Translations under genes and position numbers: made by a program
Notes under the pieces: model-generated
The model's input: the letters and a program-made list of their open reading frames with translations, nothing else
What the model was told of the DNA's origin: nothing
Databases searched by the model: none
Shown: piece after piece, positions 1,493 to 32,642 of the stretch
Position numbering within the stretch: position 1 is the first letter of the stretch
Layout: every line of letters begins with the position of its first letter
IMG/VR virus record: IMGVR_UViG_3300050021_000844
Span: 1 to 32,642 of that record
From: a virus
Strand: one strand, 5' to 3'
DNA: 32,642 nucleotides

Positions 1493-3814
1493 CTAAGTCT
1501 TCGTAACCTTCAAACAGACCACAACCCGAGTGCAAGTGGTGATCGAATCCACGTTAATCCGCAGCGTATCTCCCGCCGCGATTGTCGTTGTCCAGCCGGT
1601 CAGCGTGGCGCTCTGCGCCTTCGCCGCTGCTGAAATTGTCGGCGGCGCAGAGGCAGTAATTTTGTTGGCACTGGTCGATGGATAAGACGCGTAGGCCACC
1701 TTCCAGATGTTCACCACCACGCTGCCGGTTTGATCGGCCAGCAGCGTCCAAGCTGTGATCGTACAGGCGAAATCCACGATCAGGTCGCCCTTGATGCCGG
1801 TGGTCACCACCGATCCTCCGCCGTCGATCACGTACACGATATCGGCGGTCATCATGCTGGCCGGTGCCGCCGCTACAACCTGGGCAGTGAAATTGGCTAG
1901 GGAGTAGTAGCGAAGGTAAGCATCACTGGATGCGTATACGCGGGCGATCGCCGTTGTGCTGTTATCCCCGGAAGACGTATTGAGATAAGAACATTCGATG
2001 TAACCACTCGCGTCGGTGCGAACAATCTGGTTTGCCGCGTTGTTAGTCGTTGCACCAACGGCCAAGCCGCCCACTGTCGTTGCATTCGCAGCGGTGATCG
2101 AGTACGTGCCGCTTGTGACCTTGCCGCTGTAGTCGCCAGCCGCGAGCGATGCGATGGGCACCGTCGCGGAGGTCAGGCCCGCACCAGAGCCGTTGAACTG
2201 GCTGGCTGCGATCGCGCCGCCGAACGTGCCCGTCCCCGCCACGTACAAGTTGCGCGGACGCGTAGCTCCCGACGCGCCAATGTCGTACGAGTTATCTGCG
2301 CTGAAGATCAGGTTGCCAGTGTGGGTGACAGCCCCGAGGCTGGTAATCGGATCGGCTCCAGCTCCAGCGTGCGCCGACGCGTGCGCGGACGGCGCGAAAG
2401 TGGATGGCACACTACTCAAGCGCGCCCATGGTACCGTGCCCGCGACGAGCGTGCCGATGGTGGTAATGTTGGCGCTACCGGCCCAGGTCGAAAGCGCCGT
2501 GTTCTCGACCGCGCTCAGGCCGACCTTGGTTTTGCTGATCGTGAGCCACGTAGGATCGGAGTAGGAGCCGCTCGTCAGCACCGCCGCTGCCGGAAGATCG
2601 CCAACCGCAATCGTGCCACCCGGCCCATAGTAATCGGTCCCGAGAACAGCAACGCCCGCCGTGTTCAACGCGGTGCGTTTCATGATCCCGTTCGAGCCAG
2701 GGTCAGACATGCCGCTCCCAGGAGGCCCGACCAGATTCTTGACGACGCTCCCCCACGCGCCGGCCGTCTTCGGGCCGTACACGTCGCCGGTCGAACTGTT
2801 GAGGTACATGTCGCCGTTGTTTCCCAGACCCGCGGCGGGAGCGCCAGCGCCGCTCGACCAGACGGACGACGAACCAGTCGCGCCGGTTGTTCCGCTTGCG
2901 CCGGTTGCGCCTTTGATATTCGCGACCACACTGCCCCAGGCTCCGCCGGCCTTCGGGCCGTAGACATCGCTCGTTGCCGAGTTGATGTACATATCGCCGT
3001 TGTTGCCGGTGCCTGCCGGTGGAGCACCTGCCGCGACGACGTAAACCGGAGAATATCCGGTCAAGCCGGTCGGCCCGGTTGCGCCAGTGGCTCCGGTCGC
3101 ACCAGTACTCCCGGTCAAGCCGATCGGCCCTTGGATGCCCTGTGCTCCGGTGGCGCCCGTCGCGCCGGTCGGCCCGGTCGCGCCAATGGCGCCCCTGATG
3201 TTGCACACCACCGCGCCCCAGACCCCGCCAGCCTTGGGGCCGTAAACATCGCTCGTTGCCGAGTTGAGGTACATATCGCCGTTGTTGCCGGTGCCGCCTC
3301 CAGGGACGCCAGCTGCCACGATGTAGAGCGGCGCGTACCCGGTCGCTCCCGTAGCGCCGGTAGATCCAGTCGCTCCTGTCGCGCCAGTTGCGCCGGTAGA
3401 TCCGCTCGGTCCCTTGAGGTTCATAATCACCGAACCCCATACGGTCGTCTTCGGCCCGTAGACGTTGCCGCTCGCCGAGTCGAGGTATAAGTCGCCAGCG
3501 GTGCCAAACCCGACCGCTGGGACACCGGACCCTACATCCCATTTGGTCGCGGCGTTAGCTCCGCCGAGCACCCACCACTGCGTGCCGTCATACCATTTCA
3601 AATTCGATGCAGCCTGGTCATACGCGAAGGAGCCAGCAGACGGCACCGATGGCAGCGCGGCGGGAGTGAACCGCAACAGCGATAGGTTGACGAGCGGGTT
3701 GTTGCCCGCGTCGACCGTGCCGCCCCAGGTGCGCAGATCTAGGCCCGGCGCGGAGAAGTCGGCGGCGCTCGGCTGGTCCCCATCAACCCAGTTCGTTCGT
3801 GTCAGCCATCCCAT
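1493..3814 (-). CDS. Collagen-like phage tail fibre protein
   Basis: The product has 773 aa. After an N-terminal part (1-90) it alternates four copies of a roughly 45-residue module with G-x-Y collagen-like runs. The modules lie near residues 92-134, 160-207, 254-301 and 315-362, and share [19 protein letters not shown] and W-G-[SA]-V-V. The G-x-Y runs, rich in GAT and GPT triplets, lie near 135-159, 208-253 and 302-314. The C-terminal 400 residues are Gly/Ser/Thr/Ala-rich and beta-like. They include a segment near 510-550 ([17 protein letters not shown]) that is common in phage fibre shafts. Collagen-like triple helices trimerise phage fibres, so a trimeric side or tip fibre for host binding is the likely role. 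An AGGTGG-type ribosome site precedes the ATG. Confidence 0.85.
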
Positions 3815-23761: not shown

Positions 23762-23974
23762 TTACTCTCGGGTGTGCATTGCCAGGGTGAAAGAGGATGG
23801 CGCCGGACCCGAAACCTTGGTGATCTCGGTGTTGATGTCGGCGAGCGCTTTCCGCATGTCGTCGACGCTGTTGTACTCGACCGTGCGGTCCGTGAACTGC
23901 ACCCGGCGCGTACCGCTGAAGATGGCACGTTGCAGTGTGTCGCGCATCGATTGCAGTTCGGTCAGTTGGATCAT
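23762..23974 (-). CDS. gpW-like head-tail joining protein
   Basis: The 70-aa protein lies between the large terminase and the portal, exactly as gpW does in lambda. It has two helices (about 3-18, and 35-53) separated by a short hairpin with RRVQFTDRTVEYNS. This matches the gpW fold and length (68 aa). gpW seals the filled head and binds the FII protein. The ATG overlaps the terminase TGA (ATGA). Confidence 0.85.
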   Translation of the reverse strand: MIQLTELQSMRDTLQRAIFSGTRRVQFTDRTVEYNSVDDMRKALADINTEITKVSGPAPSSFTLAMHTRE

Positions 23975-25917
23975 TTGAACCAGTCCCCACCGCCGCGCGT
24001 GCCCCAGAGGTCATCGCGCCCACTCCAATAGCCATCAGTGCCGGGCGTCCGCGGCGCGGCGGTTGGAATGTTCCCTTCCAACTCCGCCCAGTCCTCATCG
24101 GTGAACCGATCGATCCCACAGACTGCCGACGCCGCCCGGCAGAGGACTGCCAGGTCGAGCGGCTCGTTCCGCACGTTGGGGTCCTTGACCCACTCGACCT
24201 TGCCGCTCGCGGCGCGCACGACCCGCGTCTCCGAGCACAGCCCTTTGTAGAAGTCGGCATCGCCGTATGCGTAATGCTGGTAGCCTGCCGGGAACGCTTC
24301 GTCCGGATCGGTGGGAAGCTCCAGGCGCAGCCAGTCGTAGAACTCCTGCTTCGCCCAATGCGTGCCGATGCTCCAGATGCGGACGTTCTGCCGCTTCCGA
24401 GCCGCGTCGGTGCTCGACACCGAGGCCAGCAGTTTGAACGCATTGTCTGTTCCCTTCGTCGGGATCACGGTCCGCGGCGCCGCGATCGCATCGCCGGCAG
24501 GCCCGTGCGCGGGCTGCGGGTGGCGCGCGGCAAAGTCATACACCATCTGCGGCCGGAAGCCGCTGTCGATCGCCATCGCCAGGATGGGCATGGTCCCGCC
24601 CGCCGCGCGCGGCCAGTCCTTCGCCAGGAGCGCATCCAATTCCAGCCAGACCTCCGGCGCCGAGGTCTTGATCGGCTGCCCACTCTGGTCGGGAAGTTGG
24701 ATGACCCGGTAATCGACCGACCAGGATTCCTTGCCGCGCCCGTAAACTTTGATCTCCACCTCGAGCCGGTCGTCCTGGACGTCCACGCCGGCCACCAGCA
24801 GCAGGCCGCCTACCGGCACGACGCCCAGCTCGTACTGCTCCCGCCGCAGATACACCTTTTCCCAATCCGGCGCCGTGCCCCGCTCTGCCCACAGTTCCGC
24901 CAGCACGGTGTTGAGGAACGCCTTCAGCGTCTCCGGCGACTTCTTGGCGGCCAGGAATTCGGTGGCGATCGTTCCCCAACCTCGCTTGGGCGAGATCAAC
25001 TGCGACACGCGGAAGCCCGGAATAGCCGATCCAGGGTTCTGAACGCGGTATTCGCCCCGCTCTACCATCCACGCCTTGTGGTGGTGCGGGATTTCCTGCC
25101 GGCAGTTCTCGCAGCAGTACGCTGCCTTCTCCGGCTCGCCTTCCGGCCACACCAACCCGCCGCCCGTTGCGCCGCCACCGAAGACAAGCACCTGGAAGTG
25201 ATTGCACAGCGGGCACGGGACGAAGTATTCCCGCTGGTCGCTTTCGATCCACGCTTTCTGGATGCGGCTCGCTCCGTCCACCGTCGGGGTCGAGCACATG
25301 ATGACTTTCTTGTTGCGCTCGAACTCGCCCGTGCGCCTTTCGGCCAGCGCTACGGGATCGCCTTCCGTTCCCGCGCTCGCCGGATAACGGTCCACCTCGT
25401 CCAACAGCAGGTAGCGGATGGGCCGCATGGCCAGGCCGGACGGGGAGATGGCGCCGGTGAACGTGATGTGGCCGCTCCCGTTGGTGAAGACCTTGTGGAG
25501 AGCGGTGTTGTTCGAGTCCCGCGATTTGACTGCCGCCAGCTTCCCCTTGAGACACGGCGTATTGCGGAACATCGGCGCCACGCGATCCTTGGACAGCGCC
25601 TTGGCATCCTCGCTCCGAGGCTCGACCACCAGCACCGGGCCGGGATCGACGTCGGCGATGTAGCCCAGGAAGTTCACGAGGATGCTCGTCTTCAACATTT
25701 GGGCCGCGCTCATCAGCACGGCCATCTTGCAGGGATGGGACGGGCTTAACACGTCCATCGGCTCGCGCTGGTAGGGTCGAGTCTGCCACTGCCCACGCTC
25801 GGCCGCGGCGGCGCCGGCCAGGACGACGTTCTCGTCCGACCACTGCGATAGAGTGATCTCGCGCGGCGGCAGCATCGCTTCCGCGCCGACCTGGTACATC
25901 GAGAATGGTGCTGCCAT
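23971..25917 (-). CDS. Terminase large subunit, GpA family
   Basis: The 648-aa protein resembles lambda gpA-type terminases. The N-terminal ATPase contains a deviant Walker A segment MSAAQMLKTS (69-78), typical of this family, and a Walker B YLLLDEVD (169-176). A zinc-binding insert follows, with C235-P-L-C238 and C269-E-N-C272. The C-terminal nuclease contains the acidic residue D379 in VAGVDVQDDRLEVEI and IDSGFRPQ further on. It cuts concatemers and drives packaging through the portal. The ATG overlaps the small-subunit stop by one base (TGATG). Confidence 0.93.
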   Translation of the reverse strand: MAAPFSMYQVGAEAMLPPREITLSQWSDENVVLAGAAAAERGQWQTRPYQREPMDVLSPSHPCKMAVLMSAAQMLKTSILVNFLGYIADVDPGPVLVVEPRSEDAKALSKDRVAPMFRNTPCLKGKLAAVKSRDSNNTALHKVFTNGSGHITFTGAISPSGLAMRPIRYLLLDEVDRYPASAGTEGDPVALAERRTGEFERNKKVIMCSTPTVDGASRIQKAWIESDQREYFVPCPLCNHFQVLVFGGGATGGGLVWPEGEPEKAAYCCENCRQEIPHHHKAWMVERGEYRVQNPGSAIPGFRVSQLISPKRGWGTIATEFLAAKKSPETLKAFLNTVLAELWAERGTAPDWEKVYLRREQYELGVVPVGGLLLVAGVDVQDDRLEVEIKVYGRGKESWSVDYRVIQLPDQSGQPIKTSAPEVWLELDALLAKDWPRAAGGTMPILAMAIDSGFRPQMVYDFAARHPQPAHGPAGDAIAAPRTVIPTKGTDNAFKLLASVSSTDAARKRQNVRIWSIGTHWAKQEFYDWLRLELPTDPDEAFPAGYQHYAYGDADFYKGLCSETRVVRAASGKVEWVKDPNVRNEPLDLAVLCRAASAVCGIDRFTDEDWAELEGNIPTAAPRTPGTDGYWSGRDDLWGTRGGGDWFK

Positions 25918-26495
25918 CAGTAACCTGCGTCGGCTATTGCCTTCGAGATCCTGCGCAGCGCCGAGTCGCCTTCCCTCATCAGCAGCCTGTGGATTACGGC
26001 TTCATCCGTGCCCGGCGCGAAGAACGGCATCAGCACCGGCGTCAACCGATCCGCCCACGCCGACACCTGATCGCGAGCGATGTTCGAAAAGGACGAAGCA
26101 TACTCCCCGGCCTGGGTAGCCGGGATCAGTTTGCCGGCGCGCTCCTCATACTCCAGCTGCGCCGTCCGCGCCTTGTACGTCTCCGTCACTGCGCGGGCCC
26201 GGAGATATGCGGTAACCGGATCGCCCGACATTTCGGGCTGGCTCGGCATTCCCGAACCGGCACGCGGTGGGGGAAGGGGACTGCGTGGCACCGCCTTCGG
26301 GCTGGTCGCCTGCTGTGTCGCCTGGTGCAGAGTCTTGCCGGCGAATGTATTCCGATCCCACTCCTCGTTCGCCCGCTCCGGATCGATGGTTCCGTCAGCG
26401 TTCGGCGTGATCCGCTTGCTCGCGATGGCTTTCTGTACCGCGCTCATCGCCACGCCGCGCAACCGGGCGTATGCCCGCTGCGAGACTCCCGTCAT
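25917..26495 (-). CDS. Terminase small subunit, gpNu1-like
   Basis: The 192-aa protein begins with a winged-helix/HTH-type segment (VSQRAYARLRGVAMSAVQKA, then IDPERANEEW) as in lambda gpNu1, the subunit that binds cos DNA. A Pro/Ser linker (about 68-92) and a helical C-terminal part (about 95-190) that would bind the large subunit follow. It is the first gene of the late operon. The upstream non-coding region carries three 13-bp iterons that could be its binding sites. The ATG has only a weak ribosome site (CAGG). Confidence 0.85.
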   Translation of the reverse strand: MTGVSQRAYARLRGVAMSAVQKAIASKRITPNADGTIDPERANEEWDRNTFAGKTLHQATQQATSPKAVPRSPLPPPRAGSGMPSQPEMSGDPVTAYLRARAVTETYKARTAQLEYEERAGKLIPATQAGEYASSFSNIARDQVSAWADRLTPVLMPFFAPGTDEAVIHRLLMREGDSALRRISKAIADAGY

Positions 26496-26709: not shown

Positions 26710-26980
26710 AACACTCGCGCCGTGGTGCGCTGGGGTGCGTCGCGTGGCGGCGGTTGGTCCGGGTGCCATTCCTTCCCTATCTCGGTGGCAAGTTCGGGGC
26801 ATTTGGGCTTCACTTCCGCGACATGGGCGTTGCGTCAACTTGAACCGGAACAGCGCAACTCCCATCTCGGTGCACCGTTAAAGTCTTCGAGTCAGTGCCG
26901 GCGCTAGTGCGCTCTTTCGGCCTTAGCGATTGCCACAGCATCTTCACTCGCGTCGATTCGCAGGGCTTTACGGCTAGATG

Positions 26981-27682
26981 CTACGCGATCTTCGAGAGTA
27001 GCCCCGGAAGGCGGGTGAAAGTTACTTCGTTCCGTGTGATCTTGTACTTCAGTACTTCAATTTTGAGTGCCGCCAGAGCGGCGCACGTCCTGAGCCCTAT
27101 GTCGTCCGGGGCAACCAGTACAAGTGCGGGACAGGGTAATACGCGAAAACTGTTTAGGAAAAGCTGGCCTACAGCGGTATGGATGTGTGCGAGTGTCGTT
27201 GCAGTTTTGACTTCAAACAAGGCCACCATCTGGCCTTTTCTGTTCGAGAGATAAAGGTCACGGCTTTTGTCATTCGACACCTGCCACCGCTTCAATTCGG
27301 ATGCTAGCGTGTTTACGACAAGGCCGTGAGTACGATCGGCTGCCGCCGTCCTCCGCCGCCTGGGCGTCTTTGCTGTGCCCTCAAATTCCTTGTGGAACTT
27401 CTGAGAGGATTTTGGCGGAAGCGGCGGATTCCGATCCCGTTGCGCTTTCTGATCCGTTTGATCAATTCGGACCAGCCGCCCGATCCCTGGAATGACGAAC
27501 TGTCCTCGCTCCTTCACCTCGCTGACGGCTGTGTTGGCAAGTGTCTTCAGAAGCTGTCTAGCAACTCTTATCGAAACCCCGCAGCGGTCGGCGAGTAGCC
27601 GCGCAATTTCCGATGGCTTTATGGCTCTGGCGTTGATGTCGGTTCGATGAGCAGCCTGTGAGATGCCATGACCACGTTCCAT
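26981..27682 (-). CDS. HU/IHF-like DNA-binding domain fused to PD-(D/E)XK nuclease-like domain
   Basis: The product has 233 aa. Residues about 21-100 resemble HU/IHF proteins: a helix-turn-helix dimer segment (KPSEIARLLADRCGVSIRVA, then TLANTAVSEVKERG), followed by the hallmark FVIPGIGRLVRI and a shortened arm region with R-N-P. After a basic linker (about 103-118, RRRR), residues about 119-215 look like a restriction-endonuclease-like fold. These include VVNTLASEL, D142 in RDLYLSN, ALFEVKT with E157-x-K159, then AVGQL with Q173, and a LVLVAPDD strand. D...E-x-K...Q is the PD-(D/E)XK pattern. It lies upstream of the terminase where many cos phages carry an HNH nuclease. Function in packaging, recombination or DNA targeting is inference. 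No recognised named family. Confidence 0.7.
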   Translation of the reverse strand: MERGHGISQAAHRTDINARAIKPSEIARLLADRCGVSIRVARQLLKTLANTAVSEVKERGQFVIPGIGRLVRIDQTDQKAQRDRNPPLPPKSSQKFHKEFEGTAKTPRRRRTAAADRTHGLVVNTLASELKRWQVSNDKSRDLYLSNRKGQMVALFEVKTATTLAHIHTAVGQLFLNSFRVLPCPALVLVAPDDIGLRTCAALAALKIEVLKYKITRNEVTFTRLPGLLSKIA

Positions 27683-27887
27683 AGCGCCGTCCGAAAATGC
27701 ATCTTAGCAGCAAGCGCTCAAAAAAGGTGCTTCGACGCGATTATTCAGCGTGGGGAGGCCTTTCGGCCGTCCTTGTGTTCGGGATATCCATATTCCTACA
27801 ATCCGAGTGCGGCGAGGACATCCGCGCTCAGGACGGAGAAACTCCAGGACCGATAGACCTGATCGTTCTGGATAGTTCCGCGCACGC

Positions 27888-28271
27888 TCAGTTCCTCTTC
27901 CAGACAGACCAGAGTATCCGTGTCATGCATGAAATCCTGCGCTCTCTCTTACCGCCATAGCGTTTCGTACGCAGCCGGTACCCGGACGTGTCGTCGCCAA
28001 CACTGCCAACTCCTCGTAACCGACGATCTGGAAAATAGCTCCTACCTTGTGTGCTCATCGCCTGCGCGGTAAGCGCGAAAAGCGCGGAAAGGGGTTCGCG
28101 TGATGACTTACCGCGCTTATCGCGCATATCGCGCCAACGACCCCGCTGACCATAATTGCTGCACCTGCGGCATTTGCCGTACTTATCGCGCTTACCGCGC
28201 TTTTCGCGCAGGGCCGTGAGCTTCCGTGCCTTGTCGCCGCACGCTCTCTGCACCTGCGGATCGCCATCCAA
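27888..28271 (-). CDS. Doubtful small basic protein overlapping the 9-bp repeats
   Basis: An ATG at 28271 with GGAAGAAAG about 6-10 nt upstream opens a 127-aa frame. The first half is Lys/Arg-rich, because the 9-bp repeats are read as R-[DGE]-K tripeptides, and includes a CRRC pair near residues 34-37. The second half has irregular composition with no family features. Divergent placement 98 nt from the DUF3489 ATG is compatible with a gene, but the frame may be only a by-product of the repeats. Confidence 0.25.
   Translation of the reverse strand: MDGDPQVQRACGDKARKLTALREKRGKRDKYGKCRRCSNYGQRGRWRDMRDKRGKSSREPLSALFALTAQAMSTQGRSYFPDRRLRGVGSVGDDTSGYRLRTKRYGGKRERRISCMTRILWSVWKRN
28064..28090 (-). 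repeat. 9-bp tandem repeat cluster 1 (inverted)
   Basis: Three units read on the plus strand as GCGCGGTAA, GCGCGAAAA and GCGCGGAAA, the reverse complement of the TTNYCGCGC unit found in clusters 2 and 3. Confidence 0.75.
28108..28134 (+). repeat. 9-bp tandem repeat cluster 2
   Basis: Three units, TTACCGCGC, TTATCGCGC and ATATCGCGC, head to tail. The cluster starts 17 nt after cluster 1 and faces it. Confidence 0.75.
28183..28209 (+). repeat. 9-bp tandem repeat cluster 3
   Basis: Three units, TTATCGCGC, TTACCGCGC and TTTTCGCGC, head to tail, 48 nt after cluster 2 and in the same orientation. The whole cluster is nearly the reverse complement of cluster 1, so hairpin formation between them is also possible. 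Confidence 0.75.
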
Positions 28272-28369
28272 ACTTTCTTCCGAAGCGTTGAACTTCCGCC
28301 TTGCCTTCCGGGGCCATCGGAGTGATGAATGTGATCGTCACGGTAAGCCGTGCAAAGGAAGGAACTTAC

Positions 28370-28969
28370 ATGAAAACGTTTACGATCGATACCGAGAACA
28401 ACATCAGCGCCTTCGCCACCCAGGACGAAGCCGCCGCGGCGACCGCCACGCCTTTTGATACCTTCGCCAGCCAAAAGGAACTCTTGAGCCTGGTCGGGCA
28501 GTGGCCCGCGGAGCGTCTGGTAGCCATCTGGAACAGCCTGCCGGGCGTCAAGCCGGTGAAGGGCTTCAAGACAGCCAAGGTCGCAACAGGCCGGATCTGG
28601 GAGCAGATCCAAACCCTGGGCGACGCCCCGAAGCCGAAGGCAGAGCGCAAACCCAAGGGTGGCGAGCAGGCCGCCAAGGGCGCGCCCGCAAAGGGCAAGG
28701 CGACCAAGAAGGCCACCCCCGCTAAGAAGGCGCCCAAGGCCGCGAAAACGCCGGAAAGCGCCGGGCCGCGCGAGGGCAGCAAGACTGCCCAGGTGGTCGC
28801 AATGCTCCAGCGGAAGAACGGCGCCACGCTGGCGGAGATCATGGACAAGATGGGTTGGCAGAAGCACACGGTGCGCGGGTTCATGGCCGGCGCGATGAAA
28901 AAGGCCGGCTACACCGTCGAGTCTTTCAAATCCGAGAAAGGCGACCGCACCTACCGGATCAACCAGTAG
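28370..28969 (+). CDS. DUF3489 family protein with Lys/Ala-rich linker
   Basis: I chose the ATG at 28370 (199 aa), because AAGGAAGGAA precedes it at good distance; an upstream in-frame start at 28301 lacks this. Residues 1-82 are a small helical N-terminal part. Residues about 86-132 form a histone H1-like Lys/Ala/Pro-rich linker (KGKATKKATPAKKAPKAAK). Residues about 136-198 match DUF3489 (REGSKTAQVVAMLQRKNGAT, IMDKMGWQKHTVRGFM, DRTYRI), a winged-helix-like domain found in phages and bacteria and thought to bind DNA. It is a single-gene plus-strand unit ending in a clear terminator. A regulatory or DNA-compaction role is inference. Confidence 0.85.
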   Translation: MKTFTIDTENNISAFATQDEAAAATATPFDTFASQKELLSLVGQWPAERLVAIWNSLPGVKPVKGFKTAKVATGRIWEQIQTLGDAPKPKAERKPKGGEQAAKGAPAKGKATKKATPAKKAPKAAKTPESAGPREGSKTAQVVAMLQRKNGATLAEIMDKMGWQKHTVRGFMAGAMKKAGYTVESFKSEKGDRTYRINQ

Positions 28970-29258: not shown

Positions 29259-29897
29259 TCACGCGGGCACGTTCCGGCGTTCCTCGGCGATCTCCTCGAA
29301 GGTCCGCCCGTCGCCGTCGAGCGTAGCTTTCCTGCCGGACAGCGTTTGCCAGCGCTGGATGACTACGTCCACGTATTTGGGATCCAGTTCGATGCCGCAG
29401 CAGACGCGCTCCGTGAGTTCGGCGGCGGCCAACGTCGTGCCGCTCCCCAGGAAGGGCTCATACACCAGTTCGCCGCGCTTCAGGTGATTGAGAATCGGGC
29501 GCCGAAAGAGCTCGATGGGTTTCTGCGTGGGATGGTCGAATTTCTCTTCGTCCGAACCGCCCATAATGAACTTCGGCGAGGGCGATGCCCAAATCGTGGA
29601 GTTCTCGCCGGCCCTCCCAAACCACGGTGCGTTCTTGCGCCGCACAAACCAACAGGGTTCGTGCTGAAACCAGTACAGCGTCCTGGTTAGGACCGTCCGC
29701 CCCTTGTCCCAAATGATTTGCTGATGATGCTCGAAGCCGATGCGCAGCAGGCCGTTCAGAACCTCGCGCGTGAACGTCGAGGCGTGCCATACATACGCGA
29801 CTTGCAGGCTCGGCACCAATTCGAAGGCTTCCGACCAGTCGGCTCGCGTGTCGCCGGAGATGGTCGTCTCGGTGTGGCCTTCCGTGCGGTGCTTCAT
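29259..29897 (-). CDS. DNA methyltransferase, C-terminal fragment (frameshifted gene)
   Basis: The fragment is 212 aa and starts with an internal Met. It contains the C-terminal half of an N4/N6 (D21-class-like) DNA methyltransferase. This includes HPTQKP near residues 122-127, and motif I with FLGSGTT near 149-155 in the order expected for beta-class enzymes, where the catalytic motif precedes motif I. The DPPY catalytic motif is missing here but lies at the end of the preceding ORF, in the +1 neighbouring frame. The frame is open back to that DPPYG segment (reading RRLNGCGPAEASYMKHR across the junction). The pair is best read as one gene split by a one-base deletion near 29930. Alone, this fragment should not be catalytic. 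Confidence 0.85.
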   Translation of the reverse strand: MKHRTEGHTETTISGDTRADWSEAFELVPSLQVAYVWHASTFTREVLNGLLRIGFEHHQQIIWDKGRTVLTRTLYWFQHEPCWFVRRKNAPWFGRAGENSTIWASPSPKFIMGGSDEEKFDHPTQKPIELFRRPILNHLKRGELVYEPFLGSGTTLAAAELTERVCCGIELDPKYVDVVIQRWQTLSGRKATLDGDGRTFEEIAEERRNVPA

Positions 29898-29926
29898 GTA
29901 GCTCGCCTCGGCAGGTCCACAGCCGT

Positions 29927-30601
29927 TCAGGCGGCGCGGTCACGCCACTCGCTATCGAGCTCGATGCCGTACGGCGGGTCGGTAACCATCAGCTTTGGCT
30001 TGCGTTCCCCCAGGAGCCGTGCGACGGCTTCCGCGCTGGTGGCATCGGCACAGAGGACGCGATGCTGACTGCGCCCATTGCCACAGAGCCAAAGGTCGCC
30101 CGGGCGGGACACCGGGTTGTCGGGGATTGGCGGGACGGTGTTAGCCGCATCGTCGTCGGCCGCCAGCAGCAGGTCATCGATCTCCCTGGGGTCGAAACCG
30201 GTTAAGGACAGGTCGAACTCCGCCGCGGTGAGTTCCTGCAGCTCAAGAGCGAGAAGCTCTTCGTCCCACGCTGCCCATGTCGCCGACCGATTCACCAGCA
30301 AGCGAAAGGCTTTCACCTGCGCTTCGGTCCACTCGTCGCACAGAAGCACAGGGATTGAACTCGTGTCACCGCCGGGCCACGATCCCAGCTTGCGCGCAGC
30401 CTTCAAACGCAAATGGCCGTCAACAACTTCACCGTCGCTGCGCGCCAAGACGGGGATTTTGAAGCCGAATTCGCGGATGCTCGCGCACATGCGGTCGATG
30501 ACAGCGTCATTCTTCCTCGGGTTCCGAATGTAGAAGACGAGCCGATCGATTGGCCAGATCTGAACTTGTGCGGTTTGGGCTGCCGTTTCCTGCAAGAGCA
30601 T
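29927..30601 (-). CDS. ParB-like nuclease/methyltransferase, N-terminal fragment (frameshifted gene)
   Basis: From the ATG at 30601 (AAGGTGG just upstream) the fragment has 224 aa; a GTG at 30634 would add 11. Residues about 12-115 are a ParB/Spo0J-type domain with VVDGHLRLKAARKLG near 59-73 (GHxRxxAA). Residues about 165-224 start the methyltransferase domain and contain the catalytic DPPYG near 208-212, right before the premature TGA at 29927. The family normally continues into the methyltransferase half found at 29259-29897. Phage-encoded ParB-methyltransferases modify phage DNA, probably against host restriction. A single-base deletion (GCC GGC CTG changed to GCC GCC TGA) would explain the split; a sequencing error cannot be excluded. 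Confidence 0.85.
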   Translation of the reverse strand: MLLQETAAQTAQVQIWPIDRLVFYIRNPRKNDAVIDRMCASIREFGFKIPVLARSDGEVVDGHLRLKAARKLGSWPGGDTSSIPVLLCDEWTEAQVKAFRLLVNRSATWAAWDEELLALELQELTAAEFDLSLTGFDPREIDDLLLAADDDAANTVPPIPDNPVSRPGDLWLCGNGRSQHRVLCADATSAEAVARLLGERKPKLMVTDPPYGIELDSEWRDRAA

Positions 30602-30724
30602 ATTCCACCTTTGGTTTAGGCCAGGAAGTCCCACGTTGGACGCGCGCCCTGGCTTACTGCGGAATCCGCTACCCGTTCGCGCCTGGGTGCCCCGTGTCGC
30701 GTCGTCTGGCTCCGGGTTGGCCGG

Positions 30725-31420: not shown

Positions 31421-31544
31421 CAGAAAAAACTGAGTTTCAGCCCACGAACTCCTCAGTGTTCTCGGACGCCGGCAGCTGATCCTGGACGAACCTGCCTGGA
31501 AGCAGTTCGCTGGTGATCCCCGTTCGCGTCCATCAAATCATGAG

Positions 31545-31574
31545 TGGACACTGGAACATCGATTACTTTAGTAT
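31545..31574 (+). promoter_or_regulatory. Candidate promoter for the toxin-antitoxin-like pair
   Basis: TGGACA (31545-31550, 5 of 6 to the -35 consensus) and TAGTAT (31569-31574) are 18 nt apart in a locally AT-rich stretch, about 95 nt before the ATG at 31670. Confidence 0.35.
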
Positions 31575-31669
31575 TGATACATCCAGAACTTACCAGCATA
31601 GCGGGCACCTCTGGCACGAAACACGGGCGTAACAGGACTTCGGTGGTCCTTGACTCTGCCGGGGATCAA

Positions 31670-32071
31670 ATGATACCATCCGATCAAGAGTCGGCTGAGG
31701 CAATCCAATCAGCCAAAGATGCTCTTGAGGACTATAAGCGATTTTTCTTTGGCAACGCAAAGCTCGAAAGCGAGCTATACGACCTGGGCTTGCTGACGGC
31801 CGAGGAGCGTTATATGGCGGTCGATATTGCCCTCCAGGAGATCACACCTGCCGCTCGGCGGGGTCCCAACCCTCCCAACGATTACACTTCATCGGGTCTG
31901 CTGAAGGGCGAACGTCTTTGCGCGTTTAGGTGGCAATCTGTTGAATTCAAAAGGGTAATGTATTTTAAGTTTGCGGTGGCCGCTCGGTGCGGGAAACCGC
32001 GGCTGGTAGTTTATTCGCTCCACGAGCATAGGCCCCTAAACTTGCCAATCAAAGTATCCGATAAGGAATAG
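31670..32071 (+). CDS. Small protein paired with MqsA-like antitoxin (candidate toxin)
   Basis: I chose the ATG at 31670 (133 aa), with GGGG 5 nt upstream; an upstream GTG at 31544 would add 42 residues of low-complexity composition. The N-terminal half is helical and acidic (ESAEAIQSAKDALEDYKR, then LLTAEERYMAVDIALQEI). The C-terminal half has strands with basic residues (FRWQSVEFKRVMYFKFAVAA, PRLVVYSLHEH). The order, small size and 13-nt spacing to an MqsA-like gene fit the toxin-first arrangement of mqsRA and higBA loci. No conserved toxin active site could be identified, so toxin is inference. Confidence 0.6.
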   Translation: MIPSDQESAEAIQSAKDALEDYKRFFFGNAKLESELYDLGLLTAEERYMAVDIALQEITPAARRGPNPPNDYTSSGLLKGERLCAFRWQSVEFKRVMYFKFAVAARCGKPRLVVYSLHEHRPLNLPIKVSDKE

Positions 32072-32084
32072 CGAGGCGCGAAAC

Positions 32085-32642
32085 GTGTTGACTTGCTTTG
32101 AATGCGACGAGGGGACATTGAGCCCCCAAATGATCCGGGTGGAAGGGTCTCGCCATGGCGAGACCTTTACCGTCGAAACTGACGGTCTGAAATGCGATCA
32201 TTGCGGGTTCGAGACCATCGATAGCGAACAGAGTGCGGAGTTTACGCGGCTTGTTTCCGACGAGTACCGCAAGTGTCACGACCTATTGACTGGGAGTGAA
32301 ATTCGCGCTCGGCGGACCCAATTGGGAATGACGCAGCAACGCTTCTCCGAATACCTCGGAACCGGCATTGCAAGTGTAAAGAGATGGGAATCTGGGCAAA
32401 TCCAGGATAAGGCGATGGACGAGTTGATCCGCCTGAAGACAGACCCGGAGGCTGCCAGGAAGAACTTGAAATCCCTGGAAAAGCAAGTGCCAGAGTCTTT
32501 TGTTGTATTTGAAGGACACGATATCGTCTTCGCACTGACGTCGCCGCACATGCAGTACATGCCGCCCAAACCGATGAGGATGGACAGCCAGTCGATTGCG
32601 GGGCAAGAGGAGCTGTTCATCGATACTTGCGTCGCAGCATAG
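32085..32642 (+). CDS. MqsA-like zinc-finger/HTH antitoxin
   Basis: The 185-aa product starts at GTG (GAGG 8 nt upstream) and ends at the last base of the window. Residues 1-45 form a zinc-binding domain with C4-F-E-C7 and C37-D-H-C40, as in MqsA/YgiT-type proteins. Residues about 68-110 are an Xre-type HTH (SEIRARRTQLGMTQQRFSEY, then VKRWESGQ), which in MqsA binds the operon's operator. A C-terminal extension of about 75 aa is longer than in E. coli MqsA (131 aa). It would neutralise the upstream protein and repress the pair's promoter. The family call is firm; the role as antitoxin depends on the partner. Confidence 0.8.
   Translation: MLTCFECDEGTLSPQMIRVEGSRHGETFTVETDGLKCDHCGFETIDSEQSAEFTRLVSDEYRKCHDLLTGSEIRARRTQLGMTQQRFSEYLGTGIASVKRWESGQIQDKAMDELIRLKTDPEAARKNLKSLEKQVPESFVVFEGHDIVFALTSPHMQYMPPKPMRMDSQSIAGQEELFIDTCVAA

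Follow-up and report, generated by a model that had tools for sequence, protein, structure and literature searches.

Gene content and an insertion upstream of terS

The window analysed here, that is the whole stretch of 32,642 nucleotides of the virus record IMGVR_UViG_3300050021_000844, derives from a tailed phage in which the genes for the small (terS) and large (terL) terminase subunits are followed, further on, by the portal gene and a head/protease gene. Upstream of terS, an open reading frame on the minus strand encodes an HU-like domain and a PD-(D/E)XK nuclease domain in one protein of 233 aa, as originally predicted (Table 1). The reading frame is uninterrupted and all catalytic residues are present. 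The window further contains a ParB-like/DNA methyltransferase gene (29259-30634, minus strand), which a frameshift splits into two ORFs and of which the related locus L009 has an intact copy, and, in a low-GC end region, a plus-strand gene (32085-32642) for an MqsA-like antitoxin with an HTH domain, preceded by a further gene at 31544-32071.

Table 1. Features of the fusion gene and its surroundings (positions in the window)
Feature	Position	Strand	Remarks
HU-PD-(D/E)XK fusion gene	26981..27682	-	233 aa, ATG to stop (ORF reading)
HU-like part, residues 17-87	27422..27634	-	HMM; partial AF2 model; Foldseek HU matches
Linker, residues 88-112	27347..27421	-	place expected for the returning arm strand and the final HU helix; partly basic; pLDDT ~55-61
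PD-(D/E)XK nuclease domain, residues 113-233	26984..27346	-	HMM E 1.2e-25; AF2 fold
D142, metal-ligand candidate	27257..27259	-	invariant in 47 sequences; outside search pattern
E157-V-K159, (D/E)XK motif	27206..27214	-	invariant in 6 BLAST-found plasmid relatives
Q173, helix after E-x-K strand (GQL)	27164..27166	-	invariant in plasmid relatives and in pattern-found set (fixed there by the pattern)
Small terminase subunit, terS	25917..26495	-	phrog_57, E 2e-19; first clear gene downstream of fusion
Large terminase subunit, terL	23971..25917	-	phrog_15, E 1.9e-207
Accessory insertion with fusion gene	26755..28261	.	GC ~55% vs ~65% in flanks; borders approximate

In a gapped alignment with L009, the closest long relative (85.8% nucleotide identity), about 109 bp take the place of the insertion, and a conserved block of about 75 bp lies 1,767 bp from terS in the present phage versus 9-341 bp in 21 relatives. 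The fusion gene was found at none of 52 TerL-related viral loci (48% to 97% identity), some of which have a TerL that is 91-97% identical, and it was likewise absent from the 23 source records of such loci that were searched whole, many of them being fragments. Its GC content at third codon positions is 0.59, versus 0.73-0.85 for terS, terL, the portal gene and the two halves of the ParB-methyltransferase gene. Absence from relatives, low GC and low GC3 taken together point to an accessory gene that was acquired, in the manner of phage morons.

Several other features of the region deserve mention. The conserved block (28262-28337), which is kept in the 21 relatives between terS and a plus-strand gene starting near 28370, is a candidate cos/pac site, divergent promoter or leader. 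Inside the insertion, at 28064-28218, 9-bp repeats of the GCGCGGTAA/GCGCGATAA type form a long imperfect inverted repeat, and a promoter scan of the insertion returned no sigma-70-like site. In the relative L010, the stretch upstream of terS holds a different ORF (3229-3786, minus strand) of 185 aa, whose cysteines look zinc-ribbon-like by eye; this hints that the site is an accessory slot.

The position of the gene had led to the proposal that its product may be a packaging co-factor. In such a role the HU part would bend DNA at cos, or hold it there, and the nuclease would help the terminase to cut or trim ends. The gene is indeed codirectional with terS and terL, lies 486 bp upstream of terS, and the insertion sits between terS and the conserved block. 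The description "next to the terminase" has to be corrected to this distance and to an insertion that close relatives are missing. Given the 0/52 loci, the atypical GC of the insertion and the fact that the terminase-side nuclease known in cos phages is an HNH and not a PD-(D/E)XK enzyme, a packaging role is not supported and appears very improbable, all the more so as plasmids and chromosomes hold most of the nuclease relatives found. The survey of whether homologues accompany terminase genes was negative among the TerL-related loci. The E-x-K residues are kept in the relatives.

Two halves of one protein

Since a joint alignment of HU and nuclease relatives misplaced the HU rows, the two halves were modelled apart. 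For the N-terminal half, an HMM of 18 HU proteins, from which the fusion protein had been left out, gave 60.0 bits over residues 12-86, with an E-value of 1.4e-15 when scaled to 100,000 sequences, whereas in Pfam alone the protein missed the gathering cut-off of PF00216 (15.2 versus 22.4 bits). The layout is that of the HU body, with helices at residues 23-34 and 38-59 and a beta hairpin at about 61-71 that carries IPGIG, and it ends at the RNP motif (84-86); the HU signature FVIPGIGRLVRI occupies residues 62-73, where it had been placed before. A partial model of residues 17-129, which rests on two HU rows only, is mostly of low confidence (mean pLDDT 63), in particular past the hairpin, but the two helices and the hairpin are visible, and roughly 49 residues of the model superimpose on solved HU/IHF folds with 1.1-1.3 A, at a Foldseek probability near 1 but with E-values no better than 0.08.

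Past residue 86 or 87, profile alignment detected no HU similarity, neither in the ORF's own frame nor in other minus-strand frames; a frameshifted HU C-terminus in another frame was sought but did not turn up. Neither the return strand of the beta-arm nor the last HU helix is recognisable. The earlier assignment of an HU domain therefore stands as true homology, but to a domain that is incomplete after residue ~87. On the strength of these alignments, the HU body is present and its DNA arm appears incomplete or greatly changed. As the second half of the arm is not recognisable, DNA bending is uncertain, and it is conceivable that the HU part only dimerises or is decaying. From our point of view it is nevertheless quite unlikely that it is a mere dimerisation remnant, in which case the nuclease domain, together with the basic linker, would provide DNA binding and specificity: the end of the similarity at RNP86, the missing arm return strand and last helix and the low model confidence after the hairpin would agree with such a remnant, but the IPGIG hairpin and the RNP motif are kept.

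With regard to its source, matches to the HU part occurred in about 100 of 297 genomes from the phylum of the acidobacterial MAG G024, nearly all of them HU-sized and covering residues ~17-87, and far fewer were obtained with the same query in the other sampled phyla (about 6 of 398, 2 of 237 and 17 of 247 genomes). Identity to two acidobacterial HU proteins is 42% over the aligned segment and reaches 47-52% in local matches to stand-alone acidobacterial HUs. This concentration of matches suggests an acidobacterial source, perhaps also an acidobacterial host, and the HU body was probably captured from a bacterial HU of this origin. A comparison of TerL within the same phylum, made with regard to the host, gave a best identity of 41%.

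As to the C-terminal half, an HMM of 46 relatives, built without the fusion protein, matches it with E 1.2e-25, and AlphaFold2, run on the relatives' alignment, predicts residues 121-230 with a pLDDT mostly above 95 and the classic core order alpha-beta-beta-beta-alpha-beta. In VIA-align comparisons the model came closest to Can2 (Z 10.3; 118 residues, 3.4 A) and Cdn1 (Z 10.2; 108 residues, 2.4 A), followed by NucS (Z 9.4), Bse634I (8.8), McrC (8.7) and NucC (8.5). D142, E157-V-K159 and Q173 each sit at the position given for them in the original prediction, and together with H119 and the GQL motif these residues are invariant in the six BLAST-found plasmid relatives. The restriction-endonuclease-type fold anticipated for this half was thus recovered with confidence, and the call of a PD-(D/E)XK domain proved right. 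Both halves accordingly gave significant HMM matches, to the HU profile and to the relatives' profile. No Pfam model covers the nuclease domain, and NCBIfam yields no meaningful family. A phmmer search against PDB sequences gave no match up to E 10, and the single match below E 0.001 in a viral structure library, to a protein without a name, offered no functional clue.

One could object that the two halves are not a functional unit, the locus representing either a chimera in decay or two separate genes, one for HU and one for a nuclease, that were joined in the assembly. Only this copy is known, and the neighbouring ParB-methyltransferase gene in the same contig is frameshifted. Against this speak the uninterrupted ORF, the full set of catalytic residues and a base composition that is alike in the two parts (GC3 of 0.60 in the HU part and 0.59 in the nuclease part), and we regard such an artefact or relic as extremely improbable.

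Relatives of the nuclease and rarity of the fusion

About 50 relatives share the nuclease domain behind N-terminal domains other than HU, and several defence genes occur in their vicinity. Six plasmid proteins were found by tblastn, matching the nuclease half from residue 91 or 119 with 32-37% identity and differing in their N-termini. Scans of viral and genome contigs by back-translation of a single protein or of a small alignment found no relatives; when L-x-E-[VI]-K...T-[AG]-x-G-Q-L was used as a search pattern at the DNA level, 49 loci in genomes and a single one in a virus were located, and all of the resulting ORFs except two very short ones score well with a plasmid-based profile, which took in the fusion protein itself. 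Conservation in the pattern-found set has to be read accordingly, as the pattern fixes E157, K159, T169, G172, Q173, L155 and L174 and leaves D142, H119, L126 and P192 free.

The N-termini of most relatives consist of a conserved undefined domain; one carries MrcB_N (E 5.6e-47) and one a weak SAD_SRA match. The same nuclease domain is present in the proviruses L188 (808-2106, minus strand; E 6e-11) and L189 (8455-9690, plus strand; E 1.5e-8), where the N-terminal region appears SRA/YDG-like by eye. The family combines one nuclease domain with front modules that can be exchanged. Five relatives match the PADLOC model CARF_PDDEXK (best E 2.6e-5), and SduA and REase_II are each matched weakly by one.

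Among the neighbours of the relatives are matches to Lamassu LmuA, Septu PtuA/PtuB, Zorya ZorC, Druantia DruM and type I-III methyltransferases, and plasmid relatives adjoin Piwi+SIR2 and a TIR/cyclase pair. In numbers, 289 PADLOC families were matched among 134 neighbours versus 110 in a control set of 121 proteins taken at random loci; since PADLOC families overlap and the control also contained a Septu pair, in addition to a reverse-transcriptase model, this signal is suggestive only. The viral relative L061 (9931-10920, minus strand) has a longer, non-HU region at its N-terminus. It is flanked by an S24-type repressor and an integrase, a usual place for prophage-borne protective genes. Prophage-borne defence as such is described in two publications (PMC10884400, PMC11087260).

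Searches of about 1,180 genomes from four phyla, of 50,697 phage records and of 72,556 plasmids did not reveal a second HU fusion. In the genomes (297, 398, 237 and 247 per phylum) all matches were HU alone or nuclease alone, and the six places detected by the nuclease profile in the 297 genomes all lacked an HU part. The phage records gave no tblastn match, plasmid matches cover one half or the other but never both, and the HU profile was matched by only 1 of 64 nuclease ORFs, namely that of the fusion locus. As matches elsewhere comprise single halves, the fusion, present as a single copy on one contig of one virus record, is rare within the material searched. A description of an HU-nuclease fusion was also not found in the literature searched, which left out most subscription papers, so that the earlier statement that the combination has no described counterpart agrees with everything that could be searched.

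Possible role and closest known systems

For the fusion, both homologies, the intact catalytic motif, the nuclease fold and the insertion are established, as is the exchange of N-termini within the nuclease family. With somewhat more confidence than doubt, we interpret it as an accessory, moron-type nuclease of a tailed phage that is likely directed against competing DNA, with the HU part as a DNA-holding and dimerising handle. The HU body would pair two copies of the protein and keep them on double-stranded DNA with little sequence preference, and the paired nuclease domains would then cut it, the most likely targets being phages or plasmids that compete with this phage. The swapping of N-terminal modules among relatives suggests that this module decides which DNA gets cut, and the exchangeable modules, the defence neighbours and the setting of L061 together argue for competing DNA as the target. 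A DNA-cutting weapon is hence more likely than a part of the packaging machine. Of the earlier alternative, a DNA-bending nuclease for defence or competition, the second element fits better, but the bending is uncertain because of the unrecognisable half of the HU arm. Against a defence nuclease it has to be said that this reading leaves the avoidance of self-cutting unexplained.

One could further speculate that, with the HU body in place of the usual recognition domain, the target is chosen by DNA shape or flexibility and not by sequence or base modification, in which case bends, nicks and junctions of replicating invaders might be the targets; we consider this variant doubtful but worth bearing in mind. 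Distorted DNA is preferred by HU, and a PD-(D/E)XK resolvase is known in T7 endonuclease I. It is therefore also imaginable, though unlikely, that the protein is a structure-specific phage nuclease, which would bind nicked, gapped or branched DNA in the manner of HU and thereby be steered to intermediates of replication or recombination, or to host DNA, as its substrates. The repair nuclease NucS/EndoMS among the nearest folds would be consistent with this, but the sporadic presence of the gene speaks against a core role in DNA processing, as do the defence genes near relatives against this reading as a whole.

In this fusion, a histone-like protein has been recruited as the presumed DNA-handling half of a nuclease. 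The analysis also brings to light that a nuclease family which Pfam does not model is widespread and swaps its front modules. Should the fusion protein be active, one could test if the shape of DNA is by itself enough to guide a nuclease carried by a phage.

Compared with known systems, the protein resembles the cos-phage HNH nucleases in the location of its gene near terS, but its fold differs and the gene is not conserved beside the terminase. With HU/IHF proteins (PF00216) it shares the alpha-alpha body, the IPGxG hairpin, the RNP motif and 42-52% identity to acidobacterial HUs, whereas it has no recognisable arm return strand or last helix, stays below the Pfam cut-off and carries a nuclease. 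NucS/EndoMS has the same PD-(D/E)XK fold (Z 9.4 and 9.1) but its own N-terminal domain where the fusion protein is HU-like, and no repair context was seen around the latter. The nearest nuclease fold is that of the type III CRISPR CARF-PD-(D/E)XK effectors Can2, Card1 and Cdn1 (Z 10.3 and 10.2) at 12-14% identity; the CARF ligand-sensing domain is absent from the fusion protein, whose N-terminus is HU-like and comprises only ~110 residues, so that an HU body stands where these effectors have their sensor. Lastly, a Pfam scan of the fusion protein found no SRA, MrcB_N or similar reader, and it thus differs from the modification-dependent restriction nucleases in bearing an HU body instead of a modified-base reader, while relatives of its nuclease domain carry MrcB_N or SRA-type N-termini.
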